Source: a virus. From it: a stretch of DNA of 21,959 nt. Under the pieces are notes generated by a model. That model was not told where the DNA came from and searched no databases. It saw nothing but the letters and a program-made list of their open reading frames with translations. The stretch covers positions 1-21,959 of IMG/VR virus record IMGVR_UViG_3300019888_000063, one strand, 5' to 3'. The translations under genes and the position numbers were made by a program. Positions 3,700-19,368 of the stretch are shown piece by piece (position 1 is the stretch's first letter; the number at the start of each line of letters is the position of its first letter).

Positions 3700-4484
3700 A
3701 TGATTTTATTATCCCTCAGATATTTCAGTCCTTTCTCTTCATACACGGTATTCTGCCCGTGAGTCTTGGAAATATATCCGCGTTCGCCCTCAATTACATA
3801 ACCAGACACGCGATATGCCGGCGAGAGATATCCGATATGCAGTTTTTCTTTCTCAATGAATCTCATCAGGGGATTTACGGTGTTATTCCAATCCAATAGC
3901 TCCGTGGTCTCGTTGCTCCCCGTAAAAATACCTTCTCTCGTCAGAGTTACTTCCGAGAGATCGAACTTGCCACCGAGTTTCTTTATGACCGAGGGCTTGT
4001 AGAACTCGAATGAACCCCTGAGCCAACCCGGCGGCATCCCTGGCGAATTAGTGAGGATATCCCACTTCTTGAAATTTCCATCCTTGATGATGTCGTAAAA
4101 TAGCGAGTCTTGAATGATGAGATTGTCATCATGAGTAATCAAGAGCAAATCGTAGTCATTGTAATCGTGTTCTTCTAACCACTGGTTGGCATTGCCGTAA
4201 TCACCGATGGTATTGGGGTATTCCTTATAGTGAAAGCCCTCGGCCATGATTTCCTCTTTGGACATGACTTTCTGATAGAGAACCCGGTCAAGTTTTCCAC
4301 GGTAATCATCCGCAAAAACATCTTTCTCCTTTTCCTTCTGTGCATAAATGGGATCACGATGAGAGACAGCGTATAAAGACATCATCCAACCCTTAGGCAT
4401 CTTTTGATTCTTGAAACGCGAATAGAATCCGAAGCAAAAATGCCATGAACTGACAATTACCGCTATTTTTCTTATCTTCTTCAT
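3696..4484 (-). CDS. Putative GT-A-like glycosyltransferase (262 aa)
   Basis: The protein begins KKIRKIAVIVSSWHFCFGFY and has YNDYDLLLITHDDN near residues 108-121, where the Asp-Asp pair resembles the DxD metal site of GT-A glycosyltransferases. Further on come PPGWLRGSFEFYKPSVIKKLGG and a C-terminal region with GYLSPAYRVSGYVIEGERG. I do not recognise a named family with certainty. The four-base overlaps on both sides and the position between a methyltransferase and two glycosyltransferases support a role in the same glycan pathway. Confidence 0.5.
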   Translation of the reverse strand: MKKIRKIAVIVSSWHFCFGFYSRFKNQKMPKGWMMSLYAVSHRDPIYAQKEKEKDVFADDYRGKLDRVLYQKVMSKEEIMAEGFHYKEYPNTIGDYGNANQWLEEHDYNDYDLLLITHDDNLIIQDSLFYDIIKDGNFKKWDILTNSPGMPPGWLRGSFEFYKPSVIKKLGGKFDLSEVTLTREGIFTGSNETTELLDWNNTVNPLMRFIEKEKLHIGYLSPAYRVSGYVIEGERGYISKTHGQNTVYEEKGLKYLRDNKII

Positions 4485-17085: not shown

Positions 17086-17113
17086 ATTATACCCGTCTCC
17101 GTTTTATTGTCAA
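17086..17113 (-). promoter_or_regulatory. Consensus leftward promoter (TTGACA/TATAAT)
   Basis: On the minus strand TTGACA (17113-17108), 16 bases and TATAAT (17091-17086) form a perfect sigma70 match apart from the slightly short spacer. It drives the zinc-ribbon/primase operon, with a leader of about 84 bases. Confidence 0.85.
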
Positions 17114-18772: not shown

Positions 18773-18800
18773 TTGACTTTTATAACACAGGGTGTATACT
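18773..18800 (+). promoter_or_regulatory. Rightward sigma70-type promoter
   Basis: TTGACT (18773-18778), 16 bases and TATACT (18795-18800). Transcription should start near 18807, at the very beginning of the 32-base inverted repeat. Confidence 0.75.
18785..18795. promoter_or_regulatory. Operator candidate ACAC-AGG-GTGT in the promoter spacer
   Basis: Same palindrome type as at 17117-17127; it overlaps the spacer and the first base of the -10 box, so a bound protein would block transcription. Confidence 0.45.
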
Positions 18801-18804
18801 TACA

Positions 18805-18836
18805 ACATAGTCAGGTACGTTGAAAACTGAATAGGG
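18805..18836 (+). repeat. Left arm of 32-base imperfect inverted repeat
   Basis: About 27 of 32 bases pair with 19143-19174. Shared blocks are ACATAGTC, TACG and AAACTGAATAGGG. The two arms enclose the gene at 18853 and a structured intergenic region. Confidence 0.8.
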
Positions 18837-18852
18837 GTAACAACAACAAAAC

Positions 18853-19044
18853 ATGAAATCAAACAAAGAATACTTAGTCAAATTCTACCTATCCAACAAC
18901 AATTTGGACGACAAAAGAAGTGCCGTGGCGGGAGATATAGTCATTGAGATGGACACGAACTCGGGAGAAATTATTCTATCAGAACAAGCAAACAACGAAC
19001 TTATAGATGCGATCAGGGCGTTTGAAAACGCTCCGAAAAGATAA
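18853..19044 (+). CDS. Small protein inside the inverted repeat (63 aa)
   Basis: The protein (MKSNKEYLVKFYLSNNNLDD and on) reads as beta strands followed by an acidic C-terminal helix (SEQANNELIDAIRAFENAPK). No family is recognised. The ATG follows an A/C-rich leader (AACAACAACAAAAC) with no Shine-Dalgarno sequence. A strong promoter precedes it, and its stop codon is the first part of the next hairpin. The mix of strands and helix looks like a real protein and not a chance frame. Confidence 0.6.
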   Translation: MKSNKEYLVKFYLSNNNLDDKRSAVAGDIVIEMDTNSGEIILSEQANNELIDAIRAFENAPKR

Positions 19045-19123
19045 CCTGCTCTGCCACATGTTCGCAACATCCGCGCGGAACGGCTTAGTTCCGAGCAGGT
19101 TCTAAGACGGTTGCGAGCAGGTG
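19043..19123 (+). ncRNA. Structured RNA region with two alternative folds
   Basis: AACCTGCTC (19043-19051) can pair with GAGCAGGTT (19093-19101), stacked on the GGAAC/GTTCC hairpin (19077-19092), or with GAGCAGGT (19115-19122), joined to GCAAC/GTTGC (19064-19068 with 19110-19114). The two targets compete for one arm. No T-tract follows. Whether it is a switch, an RNA processing site or a separate RNA cannot be told. Confidence 0.5.
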
Positions 19124-19142
19124 ATACCAATTAACAAAAACA

Positions 19143-19174
19143 CCCTATTCAGTTTCGAGCGTATCGGACTATGT
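19143..19174 (+). repeat. Right arm of 32-base imperfect inverted repeat
   Basis: Reverse complement of 18805-18836 with about five mismatches. It lies 20 bases before the next start codon and could pair with the 5' end of the same message. Confidence 0.8.
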
Positions 19175-19194
19175 TTATTAACTAACAAAACATC

Positions 19195-19368
19195 ATGTCA
19201 CATATAGCAAACGACCTAGCATTCGAGAACCTGACCGACTGGCTTTACGATCATGGACGAAGTGCGAAAGATGTCATGCAGGATGATACAGGCCATTACA
19301 TCCTGGTCGAGAATGAGGATGGATTCGAGAAAGTCTATTTACCGGAATTATTTTCACCGCTCATATGA
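19195..19368 (+). CDS. Small acidic protein (57 aa)
   Basis: MSHIANDLAFENLTDWLYDH, then GRSAKDVMQDDTGHYILVEN and EDGFEKVYLPELFSPLI. It is acidic with a helix followed by beta strands. The ATG follows ACTAACAAAACATC, like the A-rich leader at 18840. Its stop overlaps the next start by four bases. No family is recognised. Confidence 0.6.
   Translation: MSHIANDLAFENLTDWLYDHGRSAKDVMQDDTGHYILVENEDGFEKVYLPELFSPLI

Follow-up and report, generated by a model that had tools for sequence, protein, structure and literature searches.

A small phage protein gene between a boxA leader and its complementary trailer, in the layout of pre-16S rRNA

A 63-codon gene in a viral window of 21,959 nt (the whole stretch of DNA that was analysed) is enclosed by an inverted repeat whose left arm carries an rRNA-type boxA element and whose right arm is complementary to it. 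We consider it probable that this repeat is a boxA leader-trailer helix of the kind found in rRNA precursors, placed around a phage protein gene, for which tethering by Nus factors, pairing and release by RNase III are predicted. The anatomy of the cassette, its recurrence, the co-variation of its arms and the parallel with rRNA can be read directly from the sequences, and from these we infer the steps of a mechanism. The parts of the cassette are as follows:

18773..18800, + strand: sigma-70-like promoter TTGACT-16-TATACT (10/12 in a consensus scan), with a predicted RNA start at ~18807
18804..18838, + strand: leader (left) arm, the 5' strand of the leader-trailer helix (inverted repeat, RNA fold)
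18820..18836, + strand: boxA core TTGAAAACTGAATAGGG, matching the boxA (Nus-factor) element of rRNA leaders
18853..19044, + strand: enclosed ORF of 63 aa (from the ORF list), with its start codon 16 nt past boxA
19045..19140, + strand: structured 3' UTR with a hairpin and the repeated GAGCAGGT (fold z -2.1; direct repeat D5)
19141..19175, + strand: trailer (right) arm, the complement of the boxA leader (inverted repeat, RNA fold, cross-phage arm comparison)

As an inverted repeat, the arms span 18804-18836 and 19143-19175 (33 nt, 28/33 or 85% complementary, 306 nt apart), and in the RNA fold their pairing reaches 18838 and 19141 to give a stem of 32 base pairs, G-U pairs included. This is the top inverted repeat of up to 1.5 kb span across the entire window, and the fold of the cassette segment has a z of -5.6. 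A preliminary description had placed the arms to within 1-2 bases, and the promoter it proposed is indeed present, with the predicted start lying at the outer edge of the left arm. The strict score of the repeat is 18 against a maximum of 17 among 200 dinucleotide shuffles, a slim margin, so that comparison with other phages was required.

The boxA-like site at 18820..18836 is the only one in the window when both strands are scanned. The 63-aa protein has no relatives in Pfam, PADLOC or the viral contigs, and its structure model is of low confidence (pLDDT 68). Downstream of the stop codon and ahead of the trailer, positions 19047-19124 are strongly structured, with a G+C-rich hairpin and two copies of GAGCAGGT. 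No T-run terminator accompanies the trailer, and an operon of small ORFs begins 20 nt beyond it, at 19195. We also note two DNA methyltransferases in this small phage genome (13056-14291 and 20093-21127), one of which ends the operon that follows the cassette, and a perfect 12/12 sigma-70 promoter on the - strand (TTGACA-16-TATAAT, 17086-17113) that faces the leftward genes near the junction of the leftward and rightward gene blocks. The terminase of the window has only distant database matches, none at 60% identity or above, and an Rfam search returned no family in the window and no rRNA match in the related loci scanned.

The same core, with its complement 220-560 nt downstream and a small gene inside, is found in 17 other IMG/VR contigs, which together with the window make up a set of 18 cassettes. 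An exact IMG/VR scan for TGAAAACTGAATAGGG gave 39 stretches. Of these, L011, L012 (identical to L037), L013, L017, L026, L029, L031, L038, L040, and L041 each have a near-perfect inverted partner at a distance of 239-453 nt and hold one or two small ORFs in the interval; degenerate and variant core scans added L043 and then L143, L207, L110, L098, L169, and L150. At the same core threshold and within 1.5 kb, 10 non-redundant viral contigs, the window not counted, have an inverted partner close to the core, and none of 42 cellular hits has one. A further 12 cassettes, some of them weak, have variant cores and loops of up to ~1 kb. A scan with the Bacilli-type boxA (TTTGAAAACTAAAYAG) yielded two plausible cassettes (L306 and L346) among 59 hits, from which it appears that phages of Bacilli rarely carry this exact form. 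Pooled arms searched by BLAST against phages and plasmids gave matches at chance level, one of them a boxA ahead of a phage tRNA array, and in the open-licence literature we found no earlier account of such phage cassettes.

The 16-nt distance from boxA to the start codon in the window is similar in most of the other cassettes, and its order of promoter, boxA, gene and trailer is most clearly common to L011, L026, L043, L169, and L306, with several others having no recognisable promoter. Across the 18 cassettes, promoter-like matches 5' of the left core reach a combined p of 0.009 (0.005 for the window alone, where the tie-best match in this test is an alternative, TTCACA-16-TATAAC).

The enclosed loops are unrelated to one another except for L029/L031, with weak protein-level similarity in L012/L013 and L029/L150. 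The cassette in L143 (3128-3620) encodes an Acb2/Tad1-type anti-defence protein (hairpin domain, Pfam PF24729, E 2.5e-12, above the cut-off), and a second, basic ORF follows it within the same arms. The cargo of L011 is a helix-turn-helix protein, and the remaining cargos have no significant annotation. The Bacilli-type cassette in L306 (9908-10150) holds a 35-residue hydrophobic ORF that resembles a small membrane toxin, and in L038 a Twister-sister ribozyme (84 bits, 4161-4243) lies ~600 nt downstream of the cassette.

Within the set of 18, the two arms of one phage pair better than arms exchanged at random between phages, with p = 2e-4 in the outer flank, likewise 2e-4 in the core, and 4e-4 in the inner flank. 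Of the cells, 79.8% pair (73.2% in shuffles) and 49 are changed on both sides (23.6 in shuffles), and none of 500 shuffles reached either observed value; sliding the register abolishes the signal, and the phage's own arm beats that of every other phage in 12 of the 18 cassettes. Core position 9 is A-U in 13 cassettes, G-C in two and C-G in one, and position 14 is G-C in 15, A-U in one and C-G in one, figures that are partly ascertained since the left core was the query that turned up the cassettes and complementarity the basis for choosing partners. Compensated cores read CTGAATAGGG opposite CCTATTCAG, CTGGATAGGG opposite CCTATCCAG (L143 and L098), CTGCATAGGG opposite CCTATGCAG (L207), and GAATAGAG opposite CTCTATTC (L169). 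The arms are thus conserved as a pair, with phage-specific and compensatory changes in unrelated phages, so that the refuting outcome named in the preliminary description, arms not conserved as a pair, did not arise; its proposal that the 5' end of the message pairs with a site past the 63-codon gene is supported by the 32-bp stem and by arms that are paired and co-vary across unrelated phages. Mismatches between the arms are without strand bias (20 G-U, 19 A-C), a count that does not decide between RNA and DNA, and in 14 of the 18 cassettes the sense duplex exceeds the antisense one in stability (p = 0.08); the case for selection at the RNA level is therefore drawn mainly from the parallel with rRNA.

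That parallel had been overlooked in the preliminary description, both in the boxA identity of the arm and in the matching layout around 16S rRNA. To examine it, we set the leaders of 16S operons from genomes of Bacilli, Clostridia and Patescibacteria against their trailers. Among the Bacilli, every one of the 22 operon copies that had scorable flanks has a leader boxA whose complement lies 15-120 nt beyond 16S (alignment scores 17-25), as in AGGTCTTTGAAAACTGAATAGAAC against the trailer GTTCTATTCGGTTTTGAGAGACCT. The same complementarity is found in the Clostridia L286, L287, and L304 and in the Patescibacteria L249, where shuffled-trailer maxima are 10-12, and the best leader-trailer helix crosses a boxA-like sequence in six more Clostridia (L275, L278, L279, L281, L282, and L284) and four more Patescibacteria (L246, L248, L253, and L268); other genomes of these two groups have a helix without a recognisable boxA. 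The mismatches are similar too: G.G and A.C mismatches lie opposite GAAAAC in the trailer arm of the window (19141..19175), and rRNA trailers are mismatched opposite the GAAAAC/TTTGA part, much as phage trailers are.

In both settings boxA stands in the leader after the promoter, the trailer just past the enclosed gene is complementary to the leader, and the helix is of ~30 bp. The phage cassette therefore has the parts of pre-16S rRNA in the same order, with a 63-codon protein gene in place of 16S, and loops across the core set of 223-555 nt rather than about 1.5 kb. In E. coli pre-16S rRNA it is boxC, not boxA, that sits in the helix (PMC10250234).

It counts against this reading that the core of the window has CGTTGAAAAC, and most rRNA boxA elements have CTTTGAAAAC or CATTGAAAAC. 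GTDB matches of the core resemble rRNA and CRISPR leaders, and in cellular genomes the exact core has surroundings typical of boxA. In L048 a strong promoter comes ahead of the exact core, which directly follows a gene read as lysS that in turn follows greA, as in rRNA operons, and in L070 it lies between genes read as cas1-cas2 and a CRISPR array. The Thermovibrio CRISPR leaders (L070, L056, L080, and L078) have the exact boxA core ahead of the first repeat. In Alicyclobacillus phage KKP_3916 (L044, 2501-2690) the exact core stands just ahead of a tRNA array, an arrangement consistent with antitermination of an untranslated phage RNA. Two Nitrobacter genomes (L053, 7523-7760, and L079) share the leader of the phage cassette L040, here ahead of a Tad2-like ORF and with no convincing trailer, and these are possibly decayed cassettes; in L053, where no trailer was detected, the Tad2-like match is weak (E 0.0027, below the cut-off).

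A scan with the clostridial rRNA-type boxA TTGAAAATTGAATAGNG brought out a second, Firmicutes-type architecture, with cassettes in L392, L418, L384, L408, L389, L409, and L417 (and weaker ones in L399, L400, and L414) whose trailers match the clostridial boxA variant. Most have boxA after a co-directional gene, TATAAT past boxA, and an intrinsic terminator whose 5' half is the trailer. The trailer has this last role in nine cassettes, namely L392, L418, L384, L408, L389, and L409 together with L012, L013, and L038, which resemble the Firmicutes-type class but have a divergent upstream gene; in L418 the 3' half of the terminator repeats the leader over 18 nt. With their own promoter, a small gene and a terminator between operon genes, Firmicutes-type cassettes are built like morons, the autonomous gene cassettes of temperate phages, from which they differ in having a boxA leader complementary to the terminator as an extra part; the window cassette has the promoter and lacks the terminator. 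In L392, L418, L384, L408, L389, and L409 the pairing of leader and terminator is a candidate long-range antiterminator, and for this class as a whole we favour bypass of the terminator by read-in transcripts as a putative function. Since the Firmicutes-type promoter lies past boxA, one identical model cannot fit all cassettes.

Terminator bypass would work as follows: a boxA leader transcribed by read-in pairs with the trailer and so blocks the terminator at the end of the cassette, and transcripts from the cassette's own promoter, which are without the leader, stop there. The nine terminator-borne trailers, the 18-nt repeat in L418 and the boxA-then-TATAAT order of most newly found cassettes all speak for it. 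As an account of the window cassette it is nevertheless unlikely, because there the promoter precedes the leader, the 16 nt between boxA and the ATG leave no room for another and the trailer has no T-run terminator; the divergent upstream genes of L012, L013, and L038 are also against it.

We think it similarly doubtful that the stem is a plain 5'-3' panhandle which merely shields a short message at its ends or serves as an RNase III site, with a likeness to boxA that has no Nus role. Pairing does run well past boxA, and sequence varies while complementarity stays, as such a panhandle would have it, but the core is conserved far more than pairing demands among phages with unrelated genes, and it equals the boxA of rRNA and CRISPR leaders.

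That the arms are the terminal inverted repeats of a small mobile or invertible cassette, the alternative offered by the preliminary description, is in our judgement highly improbable, and we have rejected it. Similar arms do hold different genes and the mismatches are without strand bias, both of which speak for it. However, the enclosed genes are nearly all unrelated, and the arms matched only each other within the 21,959-nt record (E 3e-5), so that the proposed 370-base unit has no second copy there; BLASTN of the region against phages gave no match. The shared core sits at different depths of the repeat and runs inward in some phages, outward in others, and this core is an rRNA-type boxA, not a transposon end. 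No recombinase was found among the neighbouring genes searched. A chance inverted repeat, for which the score barely above shuffles might speak, can be set aside given the co-variation and, above all, the recurrence of the same paired core in unrelated phages, which we take to be decisive.

Returning to the boxA leader-trailer helix, the proposed steps draw on what has been proposed in published work on rRNA, where boxA-bound NusB tethers the leader for pairing with the trailer and RNase III cleaves the resulting helix (PMC10250234), and on the finding that a boxA close to a start codon represses translation (PMC5725501). NusB-S10 and other Nus factors would bind boxA as the leader exits RNA polymerase and tether it there, giving rRNA-like, Rho-resistant transcription and probably restraining translation from the start codon 16 nt away, as at suhB. 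Like its counterpart in pre-16S rRNA, the trailer would pair with the tethered leader once it emerges, displacing the Nus factors and closing the ~32 bp helix. RNase III could cut this helix and so separate, and possibly excise, the message from the other genes of the early operon (the small-ORF operon from 19195), and a message so released from the operon would be translated only when complete.

Two known systems share elements of this scheme. At suhB and a ParE-like toxin gene, boxA also lies shortly upstream of a protein start codon and represses it, but a complementary trailer is not described there (PMC5725501). The lambda nut sites provide a phage boxA, with nutL-bound N and Nus factors repressing N translation via an RNA loop, and differ in being without a trailer complement.

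These observations suggest that phages borrow the transcription and processing signals of host rRNA for single genes. We put forward more tentatively the broader possibility that phages infecting hosts of several bacterial phyla make single protein genes, a number of which act against host defence, look like rRNA transcription units, with arms that follow the host rRNA type and with one branch in which the pairing acts as a long-range antiterminator past the cassette's own terminator. Pairing of a boxA leader with a trailer is known from rRNA, where the enclosed RNA gene is 1.5 kb long, essential and difficult to alter by mutation. With a phage version of 370 nt, built around a protein gene that is dispensable, a reporter could test the rRNA tether-and-pair model directly. 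It would also supply a sequence signature for finding more such cassettes, and would add a general means for phages to insulate and regulate individual small genes, those directed against host defences among them.
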